Of a stretch of 64,000 bases of DNA, positions 8,297-56,056 are shown in pieces. A model generated the notes under the pieces. The model ran no database searches and was not told where the DNA came from. It was given only the letters and a program-made list of their open reading frames with translations. The position numbers and the translations under genes were made by a program. Numbering within the stretch: position 1 is the stretch's first letter; the number at the start of each line of letters is the position of its first letter. This stretch comes from Vibrio tapetis subsp. tapetis (GTDB taxonomy: Bacteria; Pseudomonadota; Gammaproteobacteria; Enterobacterales; Vibrionaceae), in NCBI RefSeq assembly GCF_900233005.1, contig NZ_LT960611.1, positions 3,162,001 through 3,226,000 of the forward strand. Direction: 5' to 3'.

Positions 8297-9319
8297 CTAG
8301 AGGTCATATAGGCTCATTGAACATTTTCCAGATACCCATGCCCTGTTCGTATGAAGAGCGTAACTTTCAAGCTCTTTAGCCGAGCCCACTGCACAACGAA
8401 ACTTGCCACCAAAGCTTTCAGAGAGGGTTAGCCATTCCTCAGCATTCATATTTAACCGCTCAAGGAGAGAATTGTGGCTAGGTGGAATATAACCGCGCTT
8501 GTTTGGCCGAACCACTTGGCCTAGTTCTTCGACTAGCGCCAAATAATCCAACAGTGAGAACTCAATACCCCCTCTCTTGGACAACACCGAGGACTGCGTT
8601 TCTCGCTCGTTGTCTAAAAAGCCAGTTAGGCCTTTAGCGGGTAATGACGCAATCTCGCCCTTGCCTGTATCTTGCTGACAAGCGAACGAATGAATACGTT
8701 CGTAAATGGAAGTGAATTCTGACTCTTCAAGGGTTTGCGCCATATCGGCCCTAACAGGATTTAAATCTACGTAAGCCATACAGCTGAGCAGGGCTTTTTC
8801 ATCCAATAGGGCTTGTGACTTAAAGCACCCTTCCCTAAATCGGCCTTTACAACCTTCTTCTTTATTGGCTTCACGTGCAATAAATTCGTTAAGGTTACGC
8901 ATTAACCAAGAAATATCCGTTAAGCGTTCACGCCATTCCTCTATAAGTTCTAGAGTTTTGTTAATTTCCGCTTTGGATTTTAACTCACCACTAAGCCAAC
9001 GGCTGACCAACAACGGCGCTTTGTATAACGTTGTCCAACGCTTAGCGACTTCTTCGTTACTCCAGGACTTAGCCAACGCTGTGTCTACATGCAGCACTAA
9101 ATGATAGTGGTTAGACATAATGGCATAGGCGCATACGTCAATCGAAAATACTTGGCTTAGCAAGCGCATTCGCTCTACTATCCACACTCGGCGATGCTCA
9201 AAGCTTTGCCCTGAATAGTTATCTTCGCCGCATAAAAAAGCACGGCGCACACACCGTGAAATACAGTGATAATACGCCGTGTCTTGAAGCGAAACTTGAG
9301 TTGAACGTGATTGCGTCAT
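8297..9319 (-). CDS. HUH (Y1, REP-associated type) transposase
   Basis: About 340 aa from ATG 9319 (MTQSRSTQVSLQDTAYYHC). The open frame extends upstream to 9571, but that part is a fusion of IS66-end sequence and a duplicated transposase fragment, so I exclude it. Motifs: AYYHCISRCVRRAFLCG near residue 15, SNHYHLVLHVD (the HUH metal-binding motif HYH) near residue 70, and AYVDLNPVRA near residue 185, all typical of the IS200/IS605-related REP-associated tyrosine transposases. It probably nicks single-stranded DNA at short palindromes. This is the only intact copy among four copies or fragments in 6-12 kb. Confidence 0.85.
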   Translation of the reverse strand: MTQSRSTQVSLQDTAYYHCISRCVRRAFLCGEDNYSGQSFEHRRVWIVERMRLLSQVFSIDVCAYAIMSNHYHLVLHVDTALAKSWSNEEVAKRWTTLYKAPLLVSRWLSGELKSKAEINKTLELIEEWRERLTDISWLMRNLNEFIAREANKEEGCKGRFREGCFKSQALLDEKALLSCMAYVDLNPVRADMAQTLEESEFTSIYERIHSFACQQDTGKGEIASLPAKGLTGFLDNERETQSSVLSKRGGIEFSLLDYLALVEELGQVVRPNKRGYIPPSHNSLLERLNMNAEEWLTLSESFGGKFRCAVGSAKELESYALHTNRAWVSGKCSMSLYDL

Positions 9320-9361
9320 CCTGACCACCAGTGAGCGAAATCTAAGCAGATAAAGTAAGGC

Positions 9362-9506
9362 TAGTTTGTTTATTTCCGCTTTGGATTTTAACTCACCACT
9401 AAGCCAACGACTACCCAATAACGGCGCTTTGTATAACGTTGTCCAACGCTTAGCGACTTCTTCGTTACTCCATGACTTAGCAAGCGCCATGTCTACATGC
9501 AGCACT
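9362..9506 (-). pseudogene. internal fragment of a second HUH transposase copy
   Basis: Nearly identical to 8960-9098 of the intact gene (aactcaccactaagccaac, ttgtataacgttgtccaacg, gtctacatgcagcact). Its right edge is the IS66 inverted repeat and its left edge joins the leader of the intact gene at ctagtttgttta. In frame with the downstream gene it makes the intact transposase appear to have a repeated LHVD...AEINK block. Confidence 0.88.
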
Positions 9507-9539
9507 GTAAACGCCCCATGAACCCACGGGGCGATATTA

Positions 9540-11069
9540 CTAATGTTTGAAGTTCCAAGGTAGGAGCGCATCGATATCTGGCTCTGCTTTCGCCAACTCT
9601 TTCATGCACTTGACCATATAGTCGTAGAGGATAAGGCCGTTGGCTTTCGCGGTTTCGACGATACTGTAAAGCATCGCGCTCGCGTCAGCACCATTTTGAG
9701 TAGCCGAGAATAACCAATTCTTTCTGCCAATGACCAGCGGTTTGATTGCGCGCTCAGCACGATTATTGTCGATAGATAAATGACCGTCATCGATATAGCG
9801 GATGAGCTTCGGCCATTGGCCAAGCGTATATTTTATTGCTTTACCCAGCGGGCTAGAGCCTATCACTTTCTGAGTTGTCATCCATTCGTAAAACTCATCC
9901 AGTATTGGTTTGGCGTATATCTGCCGTTCTGCTTTTCGTTTTTCGGCAGAGATGCCTTTCAAGCGTGATTCTATTCCATAGAGCTTCTGGATTTTAGCCA
10001 GTGCTTTATCCGCTTTGCCTGACTTGCCTTTTCCTTGAAGCTTCTTAGCATCCATGAACTTACGCCGTGCATGCGCCAAGCAGCCGACATTGGTCACGTG
10101 GTGAAGACCGTCATAGGCACCATATTCATCGGTTTGCATATAACCACTATAATCCCCTAAAAAGGCAGCAGGGCACGCCCTCGCGCGACTGTTTTGATAG
10201 TCGTACAAGGCGATGTTTTTCATATTGGGGAGTGCGGCATCTGGCGAGTCTGCGCCCGAGCAGTAGAGCCACATGTAACACTGTTTATCTTCCTTGAGCA
10301 CATTGAGCGGCGTTTCATCCGCCTGAACCACCACTTGTTCTAGTAGGTGCCTTTTCAGGGCAGCATACAGCGGTACGAACTTCTCACTGACTTGGATAAT
10401 CCACCTTGCCATGGTGGTTCGTGATAGTTCGATACCCGATTGGGTAAACAGCGACTCTTGCCGATACAGCGGCATTGCGTATTGGTATTTGCCAAGGATG
10501 ATATTGGCAAGCAAGCTTTCTGTCGCGAAGCTCTTAGAGATAATGCTTTGCGGCGCTGGCTTTTGAACGATGCGGTTATTGTCCTCTGTTTGCTCGCACT
10601 GGCGGCAAGCATACTTAGGACGAACATATTCCAGCACTTTGAGTACCGCTGGTGAGAATTCCAGCTTTTCACTGCGGTCTTCACCGATTTTATGCAGGCT
10701 CTGCTTGCAGCAAGCGCATTGCTTTTCATGGTCGTCTAAATCGAGTTCGATAATCTCACGAGGTAAGGTCTTTGGAAGTGGCTTACGTTTACCACGTTTC
10801 TTCGTTGTGGTAGTGGTCGTCACCTCAACCTCTTCTTCTTTAGCGGCTTCACATTCCACTTCGTTGAAGAGGTCACCTTGAAATTCATCGTAAGGCTTTA
10901 ACGCCTCCGAACGTTTCGCGAATTGGCGGTCGAAGGCAAGTTTGAGTTGCTCAAGTAGCGATTGGCGCTCTTGTTTCCACTCGCTTTTCTCTGACATCAG
11001 TGCTTTCACCATCGCTTGTAGCTCGGCAACACTTTGACTTTCTGGATTGATATCTGGCGTTTTTTTCAT
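9540..11069 (-). CDS. tnpC: IS66 transposase TnpC
   Basis: 509 aa, normal for IS66 TnpC. An N-terminal coiled coil (LMSEKSEWKQERQSLLEQL) is followed by a Cys-rich zinc-binding region (CACCKQSL ... CRQCE, about residues 118-160) and the DDE catalytic domain: Asp in VVQADETPLNVL near residue 251, Asp in MQTDEYGAYDG near 314 and Glu in NNRAERAIKP near 443. It is last in the element's operon. A poly-Thr stretch (EVTTTTTTKKRGKRK) lies between the first two domains. Confidence 0.94.
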   Translation of the reverse strand: MKKTPDINPESQSVAELQAMVKALMSEKSEWKQERQSLLEQLKLAFDRQFAKRSEALKPYDEFQGDLFNEVECEAAKEEEVEVTTTTTTKKRGKRKPLPKTLPREIIELDLDDHEKQCACCKQSLHKIGEDRSEKLEFSPAVLKVLEYVRPKYACRQCEQTEDNNRIVQKPAPQSIISKSFATESLLANIILGKYQYAMPLYRQESLFTQSGIELSRTTMARWIIQVSEKFVPLYAALKRHLLEQVVVQADETPLNVLKEDKQCYMWLYCSGADSPDAALPNMKNIALYDYQNSRARACPAAFLGDYSGYMQTDEYGAYDGLHHVTNVGCLAHARRKFMDAKKLQGKGKSGKADKALAKIQKLYGIESRLKGISAEKRKAERQIYAKPILDEFYEWMTTQKVIGSSPLGKAIKYTLGQWPKLIRYIDDGHLSIDNNRAERAIKPLVIGRKNWLFSATQNGADASAMLYSIVETAKANGLILYDYMVKCMKELAKAEPDIDALLPWNFKH

Positions 11070-32616: not shown

Positions 32617-34119
32617 TTAGGTAATGACCTTTGTACTCGGGTTTTGCTTTACTAACAATTGTTTTAAGGTTTTTTTGGGTTCAACGTCACCATGTATCAG
32701 GTGAATTTCACTAACTTGCGAGCCAATCCCTGCTACAAACTTAGTTAAGTCGCTTTGATCGGCATGAGCAGAGTAGCCATACATAGTATGTACTTGAGCT
32801 TTTAATGGAATACGCTCACCATTGATGTCAACTGAGTTCACAGCGTGCTTAGCGGAATTTTGCAGGGTTCTGCCTAACGTGCCGTGTGCTTGGTAGCCTG
32901 CAAAAATCACATCGGTTCTTTCATCCGGTAATAACGCTTTTAAATAATTCACCACCCGCCCACCTTGGCACATACCAGAAGCAGAAATGACAATGGCAGG
33001 CTCGCCAGATGTTGCCAGCCTGTTAACTAACCCCATGTGCTGCTTATGATCTTCGATAACAATACATTGAGAAAACTTTAAAGGCTGTCTCGAGTTTGAG
33101 ACTTTATTCTTGGCTTCTGCACTCCAGAGTTTTCGGTATCGGCGGTAAGAGCGGGTTATTTTGCTCGCTAGCGGTGAGTCCACAATAATAGGTAGGCGGT
33201 GTGATAGTTTTTGGTCATGTAATAGCTGTTCTATATCGAAGAGGAGTTCTTGAGTGCGCCCTACACTAAAAGCGGGAATGATGATGGTGCCGCCGTTATT
33301 TAGTGATTTATTGATAATGTGATTAAGCCGTTCTCGCCTTGTTGTGATGTCTTGGTGGGTTTTGTCACCATAGGTGGATTCTAGGTATAGATAGTCTGCT
33401 CGTTTTGGTGGTTTAGGGTCTGGTAATAATGGCGTGTTGCTTGGGCCTAGATCGCCGGAGAATACGATGACTTGGTTGTTGGGGAGTTTTATTTCGATGT
33501 AGGCAGAGCCGAGGATGTGGCCAGCTTCCTGAAAACGGATGTAGCAGTAATCATATTGAGGGTCGTGCTTGCTTTGAGTAGATCTCGGACATCTCGTTCC
33601 TCGATTCCGAGATGACGATAACTGGGTGCTTTGATTCTTCAGTGACGACGATGAGATATTTCGATTTTTTAATAGCGCTTCATTTAAGTTCAGCTTTAAA
33701 TTGATTCTGTACCACTGGTTGTAGGGGATGGGTTTTATTTGTTTTCTAATCCGTTCTAGTATTCTGGCTCGTTGGCCTTTGTCGAGGTTTAGTTGCAGTT
33801 TTAGGGTGTCTTCTAGCATTAGGGGGGCTAATTCTGCAGTAGCTGGGGTGCAGTAGATGGGTGCTTTGAAGCCTGCGGCTAATAGCCATGGTATGCGGCC
33901 TATGTGATCAATGTGGCTGTGGGTTAATAGTAGTGCTTTGATGTGTTTTATGGGGAAGTCAATGTCTAGGGCTTTGTTGCCTCTGCTTGCTAAGTCTTGC
34001 CCTTGGAATAGTCCGCAGTCTATGAGTAGGCTGTTTTTTCCGAGTTGGAGTTCGTGGCACGAGCCGGTTACGGTGTTTTTGCCGCCGTGGTGGATTGTTT
34101 TGTGGTGGATTGCTTTCAT
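32617..34119 (-). CDS. MBL-fold beta-CASP RNA/DNA hydrolase with a repeat-derived insert
   Basis: 500 aa; relatives are about 450. The metal site HSHIDH is at residues 67-72 and further MBL/beta-CASP motifs follow: GHILGSAYIEI, VFSGDLG, STYGDKTH, IPAFSVGRTQELL, ISASGMCQGGRVVNYL and YGYSAHADQSDL. These belong to the YSH1/CPSF-like exonuclease group. Residues about 152-188 (ISSSSLKNQSTQLSSSRNR and CPRSTQSK) are foreign to the family: they are encoded by a copy of the local palindromic repeat at 33578-33619 plus flanking sequence, and the frame is kept. Function beyond nuclease is unknown. Confidence 0.85.
   Translation of the reverse strand: MKAIHHKTIHHGGKNTVTGSCHELQLGKNSLLIDCGLFQGQDLASRGNKALDIDFPIKHIKALLLTHSHIDHIGRIPWLLAAGFKAPIYCTPATAELAPLMLEDTLKLQLNLDKGQRARILERIRKQIKPIPYNQWYRINLKLNLNEALLKNRNISSSSLKNQSTQLSSSRNRGTRCPRSTQSKHDPQYDYCYIRFQEAGHILGSAYIEIKLPNNQVIVFSGDLGPSNTPLLPDPKPPKRADYLYLESTYGDKTHQDITTRRERLNHIINKSLNNGGTIIIPAFSVGRTQELLFDIEQLLHDQKLSHRLPIIVDSPLASKITRSYRRYRKLWSAEAKNKVSNSRQPLKFSQCIVIEDHKQHMGLVNRLATSGEPAIVISASGMCQGGRVVNYLKALLPDERTDVIFAGYQAHGTLGRTLQNSAKHAVNSVDINGERIPLKAQVHTMYGYSAHADQSDLTKFVAGIGSQVSEIHLIHGDVEPKKTLKQLLVKQNPSTKVIT
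33578..33619 (+). repeat. palindromic hairpin repeat (single unit) inside the MBL gene
   Basis: A 42-bp copy with the stem ATCTCGGA/TCCGAGAT, the same unit as those at 34212, 34773, 34972, 40120, 40446 and 55892. It sits in the coding sequence of the MBL gene and is translated on the opposite strand. Confidence 0.93.
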
Positions 34120-34453
34120 GTTTGTTTCCCTTACAAATACGAACCTATAAGCATATCGATTTATAGAGGAGGGTTTTGCGAGTGGGTTAAAGGGGTTGGA
34201 GCGTGCTTTGGGTAGATCTCGGATATCTCGTTCCTCGATTCCGAGATGACGATGATGGGGTTATTCGATTCTGAGATGACGAATCAAGGTTGTGATATTT
34301 GGGGTAACTTATGCCTAGAAAATCGTAAGCACAGAATTAATAAAGGCTTATTCTTCTATGATAATTCACAAACTCGATCGAATAAGCTTATGAATAAAAA
34401 CCACCAGCTATCAAGTCCCGTTAGACTGCGAATTTTCTCAGAAGGCTAATTTC
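34120..34453. other. intergenic region between MBL and GIY-YIG genes
   Basis: About 330 bases. It contains the hairpin repeat at 34212-34252 and, right after it, a half copy (ttctgagatgacgaa, about 34267-34281). The rest is AT-rich; no further gene is supported. Confidence 0.6.
34212..34252 (+). repeat. palindromic hairpin repeat, left of GIY-YIG gene
   Basis: A 41-bp unit with an 8-bp perfect stem (ATCTCGGA/TCCGAGAT) and the terminal gatgacga. Same orientation as all the other copies. Confidence 0.93.
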
Positions 34454-34741
34454 ATGCAAAAGCAACCCTGCGTTTACTTTCTTTCGTCCGTAAACAAAAA
34501 TGCTTTATATATCGGGGTTACGAGCAATCTAAAGAAGAGAGTATGGTTACACAAAAGTAATGCTGTTAACGGTTTTTCTAAGAGATATCAAACACACGAA
34601 CTCATATATTTTGAATTGTATTCAACAATGGATTTAGCTATCGCAAGAGAAAAACAAGTTAAGAAATGGCGCAGGCAGTGGAAGAATGAGCTTGTTGATA
34701 CGCATAACCCTGAATGGCTAGACTTATACTTGTCATTATAA
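34454..34741 (+). CDS. GIY-YIG nuclease domain protein (COG2827/UPF0213-like)
   Basis: 95 aa, a stand-alone GIY-YIG domain. CVYFLSSVNKNALYIGVTSNLKKRV gives the Y...YIG core (VYF for GIY, YIG) with the catalytic Arg in KKRVWLHK; HELIYFELYSTMDLAIAREKQVKKW carries the conserved Glu (AREKQ) that binds metal, and NPEWLDLY is the usual end. Members of this group are nucleases of unknown biological role. This one is bracketed by palindromic repeats at 34212-34252 and 34773-34812, with a 159-bp copy following at 34853. The position suggests a link to their mobility, though this is only inference. Confidence 0.88.
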   Translation: MQKQPCVYFLSSVNKNALYIGVTSNLKKRVWLHKSNAVNGFSKRYQTHELIYFELYSTMDLAIAREKQVKKWRRQWKNELVDTHNPEWLDLYLSL

Positions 34742-34772
34742 GGTTAGCCTTAAAAAAAACGTGCAAGTTTTA

Positions 34773-34812
34773 GTAGATCTCGGATATCTCGTTCCTCGAT
34801 TCCGAGATGACG
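34773..34812 (+). repeat. palindromic hairpin repeat, right of GIY-YIG gene
   Basis: A 40-bp unit with the stem ATCTCGGA/TCCGAGAT, about 30 bp after the GIY-YIG stop codon. Confidence 0.93.
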
Positions 34813-34852
34813 ATATGTAGTGGTCTCTCAACGACAATACGACGGCGGAGAG

Positions 34853-35011
34853 TCGTCATCTCTGAAACAATGTACCCTAGTAAGGTTATGAGATGAAAGT
34901 GGTGGGCATTGTTATCAGAGATCTACTTGCCTAGTGCTCGGTGATTAAGGGGGCTTAGAGTACGCTTTAGGTAGATCTCGGATATCTCGTTCCTCGATTC
35001 CGAGATGACGA
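34853..35011 (+). repeat. 159-bp composite palindromic repeat (copy 1)
   Basis: Begins TCGTCATCTCTGAAACAATG and ends TTCCGAGATGACGA, so its ends are inverted repeats of TCGTCATCTC. Inside, the first hairpin (ATCTCTGAAACAATG against CATTGTTATCAGAGAT) is followed by a linker and then the 41-bp hairpin unit. Same length as copies 2 and 3. Confidence 0.9.
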
Positions 35012-35052
35012 AATGTAGAGGCTCGATTCCGAGGTAACGGTAATAATAGCCC

Positions 35053-35679
35053 CTATCCCTCTAAATGCTTTTCTAACGCTTCAAGCTGCATCATCCCCTC
35101 TTCCGTCGCTAACGGCTTAACAATGGTGATCATCTGCTGCATGCCTTGCAGAATGACTTGTTCAGTCACTTGAGTTTGAGTCGACATGACGATTCGGTAG
35201 CTTAACCAGTGAGTCGCCACTAAATGAAGCGTGCTAACTAAAGACTTCATTGCCTCATCGGTTACTTCAATCAGGCCAAGATGACGAATTTCTTCTGTAA
35301 TCGCCAGTAAGTTCGCTTGAAGCTTTTGTTGAACTTGCAGGTAGTCTTGGTGCAAAGAGAGATCTCGGTTCAAAATTTCAGGTAAATTTGAATAGAAGAA
35401 TCGGTACTTCCACATCAATGAAAATATGGCTTCCATATAATGTTCAAGAAATGTGAGGTTCTCATCAGGGCGTGATGAAGGGGAAAGCTTCTCTAGCAAT
35501 TCTTGGGAGTAAAGCTCAAAAATACTGCGGATGATCTCTTGTTTATTAGCGAAATGGTAATACAGGTTGCCTGGGCTAATATCGATGTGGGCCGCGATGT
35601 GATTGGTCGTGACGTTACGTTCGCCTTGTTCATTAAAAAGGGTTAACGCATTAAAAATAATTTTATCACGAGTTTTCAT
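35053..35679 (-). CDS. TetR-family transcriptional regulator
   Basis: 208 aa. The N-terminal HTH is clear: KIIFNALTLFNEQGERNVTTNHIAAHIDISPGNLYYHFANKQEII, the YYHF-x-K motif near residue 42 being diagnostic. The C-terminal ligand domain cannot be matched to a ligand. It lies divergently from the yjbEFGH operon, with 260 bp between that contain palindromes, so regulation of yjbE is possible but not shown. Similar regulators in marine gammaproteobacteria often neighbour lipid or efflux genes. Confidence 0.9.
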   Translation of the reverse strand: MKTRDKIIFNALTLFNEQGERNVTTNHIAAHIDISPGNLYYHFANKQEIIRSIFELYSQELLEKLSPSSRPDENLTFLEHYMEAIFSLMWKYRFFYSNLPEILNRDLSLHQDYLQVQQKLQANLLAITEEIRHLGLIEVTDEAMKSLVSTLHLVATHWLSYRIVMSTQTQVTEQVILQGMQQMITIVKPLATEEGMMQLEALEKHLEG

Positions 35680-40001: not shown

Positions 40002-40160
40002 TCGTCATCTCTGAAACAATGTACCCACGGAGCTCAAAGGTGTTGAAAATGGTGTGCATTGTTATCAGAGATCTGCTTACCTTGTGCTCGGTGGTTAAAG
40101 GGTTCAGAGTTCGCATCGGGTAGATCTCGGATATCTCGTTCCTCGATTCCGAGATGACGA
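40002..40160 (+). repeat. 159-bp composite palindromic repeat (copy 2)
   Basis: Same ends and hairpins as the copy at 34853-35011, with terminal TCGTCATCTC inverted repeats. Differs mainly in the linker (tacccacggagctcaaagg). Confidence 0.92.
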
Positions 40161-40327: not shown

Positions 40328-40486
40328 TCGTCATCTCTGAAACAATGTACCCACGGAGCTCAACGATATTGAAAATGGTGGGCATTGTTATCAGAGATCT
40401 GCTTACCTTGTGCTCGGTGGTTAAAGGGTTCAGAGTTCGCATCAGGTAGATCTCGGATATCTCGTTCCTCGATTCCGAGATGACGA
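40328..40486 (+). repeat. 159-bp composite palindromic repeat (copy 3)
   Basis: Identical in length and nearly in sequence to copy 2, which is 326 bp away; the two may be a local duplication together with the flanking G-rich repeats. Confidence 0.92.
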
Positions 40487-55891: not shown

Positions 55892-55932
55892 GTAGATCCC
55901 GGACATCTCGTTCCTCGATTCCGGGATGACGA
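55892..55932 (+). repeat. palindromic hairpin repeat with compensatory change
   Basis: Stem ATCCCGGA/TCCGGGAT: compared with ATCTCGGA/TCCGAGAT in the other copies, both arms changed together, so base pairing is kept. Confidence 0.93.
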
Positions 55933-55998
55933 TATGGTTGATTAACACCATAACGCTTTTGCTTTTCTAGCTTCTAAAGCGAGCCTACGGGTACTCTG

Positions 55999-56032
55999 TA
56001 ACCTATAACCTATAACCTATAACCTATAACCT
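55999..56032. repeat. 7-bp tandem repeat
   Basis: Unit taaccta, close to five copies, directly followed by gtgagcacagcgaattc. Confidence 0.9.
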
Positions 56033-56056
56033 AGTGAGCACAGCGAATTCTCTTTT

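Follow-up and report, generated by a model that had tools for sequence, protein, structure and literature searches.

Does a small nuclease gene that stands among hairpin repeats belong to these repeats, and do gene and hairpins form a unit that moves? The question was raised by an earlier note on a Vibrio genome of 5.73 Mb, in which an open reading frame of 95 amino acids for a GIY-YIG nuclease is framed by palindromic sequences. The stretch of DNA analysed, here called the window, comprises 64 kb (C1:3162001-3226000).

The hairpin core TCTCGTTCCTCGATTCCGAGATGACG occurs in seven copies in the window, six of them exact and one with one mismatch, and in none of 100 shuffles. Hairpin A reads CGTCATCTCGG...CCGAGATCTAC on the reverse strand; all seven copies are located on the minus strand and each is CGTC-tagged (Table 1). 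The detector reported one further match in the window, which was unrelated to this family. A 24-base piece of the core had nine matches in the 5.73 Mb of the genome at up to three mismatches, seven of them inside the 64-kb window. Three copies of hairpin A are joined to a second hairpin, B, in inverted pairs, and exact genome matches to the core of hairpin B were confined to these three sites. The third inverted pair follows 326 bp after the second and is apparently its tandem duplication; tandem duplication lies behind some of the local clustering in this genome. In DNA folding, the single hairpin A was no stabler than shuffled sequences (z -0.95), while hairpin B of the inverted pair was stabler (z -3.6). 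The arrangement described in the earlier note was thus recovered: hairpin units lie on both sides of the gene at the positions given there, the "159-bp copy" downstream of the gene corresponds to the first inverted pair, and the further copies within a gene (33578) and at 40.0, 40.3 and 55.9 kb were all found. The gene that carries a hairpin in frame encodes a beta-CASP protein; of the 15 sequences compared with it, 11 (two from the same genome) have 40-49 fewer residues in the hairpin-bearing stretch, and the other four have 25-36 fewer. Some beta-CASP relatives have different, shorter inserts at the same loop. Beside the hairpin at 55.9 kb, a short tandem repeat of CCTATAA (55998-56034) was observed in a stretch that is absent from the close relative G092.

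Table 1 Location of the features in the window and in compared loci (positions refer to the window unless a locus is named)
Feature	Position	Strand	Remarks
Polysaccharide-export/rml/beta-CASP neighbourhood	28482-53097; L004, L005, L015, L031, L033, L041, L048, L051, L148-L151		
beta-CASP gene	32617-34119		in-frame insertion containing hairpin A
Hairpin A	33582..33617	-	CGTC-tagged, in frame within beta-CASP gene
Stretch holding gene and hairpins	34188..35054		about 865 bp; close relative G092 has 44 bp here
Hairpin A	34216..34251	-	CGTC-tagged, upstream of nuclease gene
GIY-YIG nuclease gene	34454..34741	+	95 aa ORF, PF01541 match, core residues invariant in alignment
Hairpin A	34777..34812	-	CGTC-tagged, downstream of nuclease gene
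Inverted pair B-A	34854..35010		hairpin B (+, 34854-34922), hairpin A (-, 34975-35010), CGTC at both outer ends
Inverted pair B-A, second copy	40003..40159		hairpin A part 40124-40159 (-)
Inverted pair B-A, third copy	40329..40485		hairpin A part 40450-40485 (-)
Hairpin A variant	55896..55931	-	ATCCCGG/CCGGGAT vs ATCTCGG/CCGAGAT: both sides of one stem pair changed
Divergent GIY-YIG-like ORFs	L050:6085-6354, L051:5975-6337, L049:9457-9810, L048:6051-6410, L033:7579-7932		

The window hairpins match the class of CGTC-tagged REPs. An unpaired CGTC (or TGTC) is present at one end of all seven, and both genomic repetition and head-to-head dimers were found, with nine copies, three of them in inverted pairs, at a low copy number. 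As far as the accessible text of the survey by Di Nocera et al. (2013, PMC3733652) describes the class, the window repeat shares with it the CGTC tag, a stem starting with AT, the head-to-head dimers and the copies inside genes, and most relatives also share the short loop and the CCA-like tail; the window repeat differs in a longer loop and in a tail other than the consensus. A stem of 8-9 bp beginning with AT, a loop of 4-5 bases and a CCA-like tail are common in relatives, whereas the window hairpin combines the AT start of the stem with a long loop and the tail CTAC; in Vibrio the tails are ATCT and the loops are longer in some. Neisseria dRS3 repeats are assigned to the class in the same source, in which CGTC-tagged REPs "apparently lack a dedicated transposase": its accessible portion reports neither a tyrosine transposase gene with CGTC repeats around it nor any dedicated enzyme, and the word Vibrio is absent from the main text (PMC3733652).

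The 95-residue protein consists of a single GIY-YIG domain (PF01541, E 4.9e-16), and its gene is the sole match of its type in its own genome. An alignment of 24 sequences revealed Y8, Y19, G21, R29, E66 and N85 as invariant, residues that form part of the GIY-YIG active site in this superfamily. Among the Vibrio matches listed, intact genes reached bit scores of 120-153, proteins of the YhbQ type at most 44, with gene fragments and divergent tandem copies in between; by these scores the gene does not group with the near-universal GIY-YIG proteins of Vibrio. This gap, together with the absence of CGTC hairpins from all eight YhbQ-like loci that served as control, led us to reject an identity as an ordinary UPF0213/YhbQ-type protein. 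A phage homing endonuclease was ruled out by the lack of any match among 50,697 phage records; searches of PHROG and PADLOC yielded weak matches and nothing stronger. With the GIY-YIG homing endonuclease genes of phages and introns the gene would share a selfish spread by cutting and repair, but at its length the window protein has no room for a DNA-binding domain of its own. Several Vibrio copies of the gene have beside them a second GIY-YIG-like ORF (Table 1), 28-37% identical and with core-motif residues lost, which may be a dead or a regulatory partner.

The association of gene and hairpin has strong support and extends far beyond Vibrio. Contigs of GTDB genomes were scanned for relatives of the gene; at least 580 were present and the best 80 were fetched, hence the sample leans to close relatives. 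Counted as hairpins were [CT]GTCAT sites with a stem of 8 bp in which one mismatch was allowed; DNA within 500 bp of the gene was considered near and DNA beyond 2.5 kb distal. In these best 80 relatives, 192 hairpins were located in 76.9 kb of near DNA (2.50/kb) and 121 in 660 kb of distal DNA (0.18/kb), numbers that count nested tags twice; after merging, 181 near and 118 distal hairpins were left and the locus counts stayed the same. Near flanks with shuffled dinucleotides contained on average 0.9 hairpins and at most two (20 runs). Near flank of 800 bp or more was available for 72 of the 80 loci; one or more near CGTC hairpins were present at 63 of these and two or more at 55, so the gene is usually accompanied by repeats, though with clear exceptions. 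When the tetramers next to near hairpins were counted blind to the tag, CGTC ranked first, with 148 occurrences for 215 hairpins. Hairpins within 200 bp on both sides of the gene were present at 38 of the 72 loci, and at 25 of these the nearest pair pointed the CGTC outward. For Vibrio, 23 of 27 genes had a hairpin within 500 bp, and the density by the strict pattern fell from 2.19/kb at 0-500 bp to 0.72, 0.34 and 0.46 and was 0.13/kb at 4-6 kb, compared with a genome mean of 0.011/kb. The relative in Neisseria gonorrhoeae (44.6% identity over 97%) is placed among 16 CGTC hairpins, repeats of the CGTCATTCCC type. In a plasmid collection, CGTC hairpins were present at four of eight loci; the four without were the more divergent ones (40-43% identity). 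On a Planktothrix plasmid (L201:2986-3270), a GIY-YIG relative without CGTC hairpins has a type IIL restriction enzyme on one side and DISARM drmA on the other.

Gene and hairpin also match each other in kind. In some genomes each gene has a repeat family of its own: of three Vibrio genomes with two genes, two (G143, with the genes 4 kb apart, and G034) have distinct hairpin families beside their two genes, whereas the third (G051) has alike stems at both. Protein identity correlated with the similarity of the first ten bases of the hairpin (r 0.48 over 67 of the 80 loci, the others having no short hairpin or open frame, and with host relatedness disregarded), a value reached in none of 2000 permutations. 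Nuclease and hairpin are very likely cognate.

The co-occurrence in whole genomes was in line with a partnership that is not strict. The gene was detected in 43 of 196 Vibrio genomes, broken in some, and in 59 of 276 genomes of a class-wide sample. At least six strict CGTC copies were present in 39 of 43 gene-positive and in 50 of 153 gene-negative Vibrio genomes (p 6e-12; a genome with a gene fragment alone, G002, is counted as gene-negative), and at least ten copies in 37 of 59 gene-positive and 18 of 217 gene-negative genomes of the class sample (p 2e-17); the odds ratios of 20 and 19, respectively, ignore host relatedness. The expectation that in Vibrio the hairpins follow the gene was borne out for the gene-positive genomes, yet repeats are also kept by many genomes without it. 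These counts indicate that the gene predicts repeats well and that repeats often outlast the gene or occur without it. Some low repeat counts in gene-positive genomes are false, because the genus pattern misses some stems, that of the window included. Eighteen gene loci were inspected in 17 gene-positive genomes, most of them chosen for few pattern matches; in 12 cases a CGTC hairpin was lacking up to a distance of 700 bp, with just 65 bp available on one side in one of the 12. The detector found no hairpin within 500 bp of four of the 27 Vibrio genes; at one of them (L041) a variant hairpin that it had rejected is visible by eye. Several extra gene copies in multi-copy genomes were without hairpin, and among the 14 multi-copy genomes listed, G232, G450 and G384 belong to the several in which the detector placed no gene copy within 600 bp of a CGTC hairpin. 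At the Vibrio breoganii locus L061, which has three GIY-YIG matches, 21 hairpins were counted at distances above 2.5 kb but none within 500 bp of the best match. Genes without repeats cluster only weakly: the Fitch count was 19 changes, against a shuffled mean of 25.8 and a lowest value of 20, for 146 proteins of which 113 had repeats, 28 had none and five were undecided, a split which cannot be used as a rate because some genomes are present twice. Sixteen repeat-rich gene-negative genomes (six Vibrio, ten of the class sample) were searched at one other GIY-YIG locus each; 14 loci were hairpin-less and two had one hairpin, which at one of the two overlaps a YhbQ-like gene at its end. As no repeat array was present at any of these, no substitute enzyme was found.

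Genome comparisons support the mobility of gene plus hairpins. To the window, the close relative G092 has an identity of 90-95% for six of the nine longest blocks in the alignment; beside the gene the values are 84.7% and 86%, and two other blocks have 68-69%. It has no nuclease gene, one repeat of the family against seven in the window by the same pattern, and a shorter sequence at all four repeat sites of the window; its intergenic DNA is too diverged for an empty site to be delimited exactly. In Azospirillum lipoferum 4B, a unit of 509 bp, consisting of two hairpins, the gene and two hairpins, is inserted between sufB and sufC and is absent from the four relatives compared (A. oryzae, A. 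ramasamyi, A. sp. B510 and A. argentinense), with a scar that is not clean. Rhizobium relatives offered no clean empty site. A genome of 1.9 Mb (G277) contains three copies of the gene on different contigs, each between a forward and a reverse hairpin. These dispersed cassettes have 356-406 bp in common at 94-96% identity, and for their outside flanks a similarity of 0.56-0.61 was obtained in five comparisons out of six and of 0.70 in the other. At the right ends the similarity stops at the end of the hairpin; the left ends are unclean, with an indel between two copies and a third copy that differs from 27 bp upstream of the gene to the hairpin. The mobile unit proposed in the earlier note gained comparative support, with no empty site defined to the exact base. 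The cassette is more likely than not a selfish mobile unit.

A relation between GIY-YIG nucleases and repeats was new to the earlier note; it has probably been described already. A 2025 paper of the Veyrier group in Nature Communications, "Discovery of the widespread site-specific single-stranded nuclease family Ssn", reportedly describes GIY-YIG enzymes whose cognate repeats are cleaved in single-stranded DNA and which influence transformation in Neisseria. On the basis of this description the window gene is placed with the Ssn-like enzymes, and the gonococcal relative is presumably the published neisserial Ssn. The likeness comprises the single GIY-YIG domain of about 95 amino acids with intact core residues, the neisserial homologue among repeats of the cognate type and the possession of an own repeat per gene in some genomes. 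The cassette structure and the link to CGTC-tagged REPs come from the present analysis; the reading as a mobile cassette is the newer part. Among the titles and abstract openings of the literature matches listed, an incomplete coverage, none joined GIY-YIG nucleases to REPs. The arrangement of an enzyme gene between cognate hairpins, with inverted pairs as non-autonomous units, resembles the RAYT/REP system and its REPINs, but has an enzyme of PF01541 in place of an HUH tyrosine transposase and CGTC in place of GTAG as the tag; the locus is therefore not a member of that system.

In the mechanism that we propose, the nuclease would be a small site-specific GIY-YIG endonuclease with the surrounding CGTC-tagged hairpin as cognate target; if it acts as reported for Ssn, cleavage of this target would most likely take place on single-stranded DNA, in or close to the tag. 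Gene and hairpins would act as a selfish pair: the cassette of hairpin, gene and hairpin as the autonomous unit, single hairpins and inverted pairs as its non-autonomous derivatives. We infer that the hairpins are cleaved and that the repeats spread, mostly to nearby sites, through repair of the cuts; as GIY-YIG enzymes are hydrolytic and make no covalent joint, this repair would proceed by copying or annealing. Site-specific nuclease, cognate hairpin, autonomous cassette and repair-driven spread taken together form a reading which we regard as fairly probable. A wider proposal falls somewhat short of an even chance: the cassettes may be transposase-free autonomous mobile elements, spreading mostly nearby by nuclease-provoked repair of single-stranded DNA, and the source of CGTC-tagged REPs across Proteobacteria and beyond, Neisseria dRS3 included. 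Because this pairing is found again in many unrelated bacteria, the nuclease is a good candidate for the partner that a widespread repeat class has been lacking. Thereby a candidate enzyme that tracks the repeats in distant bacteria is named for the CGTC-tagged REPs, the pairs of gene and hairpin supplied here make the mechanism directly testable, and cassettes that do move would be mobile elements driven by a nuclease alone.

The pair could instead be domesticated: during natural transformation the nuclease would cut single-stranded DNA entering the cell wherever it carries the repeats and would thereby set the borders of recombination, with repeats selected around exchangeable loci, e.g., polysaccharide genes, and mobility being incidental. 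The meningococcal enzyme reportedly modulates transformation, the gonococcal relative has its 16 hairpins around it, and among the 42 other gene-positive Vibrio genomes there are at least 12 in which homologues of the window's genes for polysaccharide export, rml or beta-CASP lie no more than about 6 kb from the nuclease gene (Table 1), a count from loci of unequal length without a control set. The common location may however reflect common descent, and the gene looks selfish in being patchy in both samples, sometimes broken and present in dispersed cassettes; we therefore consider domestication unlikely, if worth keeping in mind.

A selfish pair also has to be set apart from mere hitchhiking, in which REPs gather in the intergenic DNA of REP-rich genomes and the gene is there by chance. 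Distal intergenic DNA of the same loci does bear repeats (0.84/kb), but in intergenic DNA alone the density near the gene is 4.59/kb, 5.4 times as high; other ORFs in the same loci had a hairpin in 48 of 388 cases and the YhbQ-like family in none, and the hairpin sequence tracks the gene, all of which renders this explanation quite improbable. Least probable by far is a mobilization of the hairpins by a REP-associated tyrosine transposase at 8.3-9.6 kb, the HUH competitor that the earlier note had placed at 8.3-9.3 kb: a RAYT-like ORF is present in the window (NF047646, E 1.5e-7), but the match is below the cut-off, partial, internally repeated and without Pfam match, no hairpin of the family lies within 24 kb, and the published search cited above, in its accessible text, had no tyrosine transposase gene flanked by CGTC repeats. 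At 8297-11069 of the window, this RAYT-like ORF with its internally repeated segment overlaps another ORF. The overlapping ORF resembles a transposase of the IS66 type.
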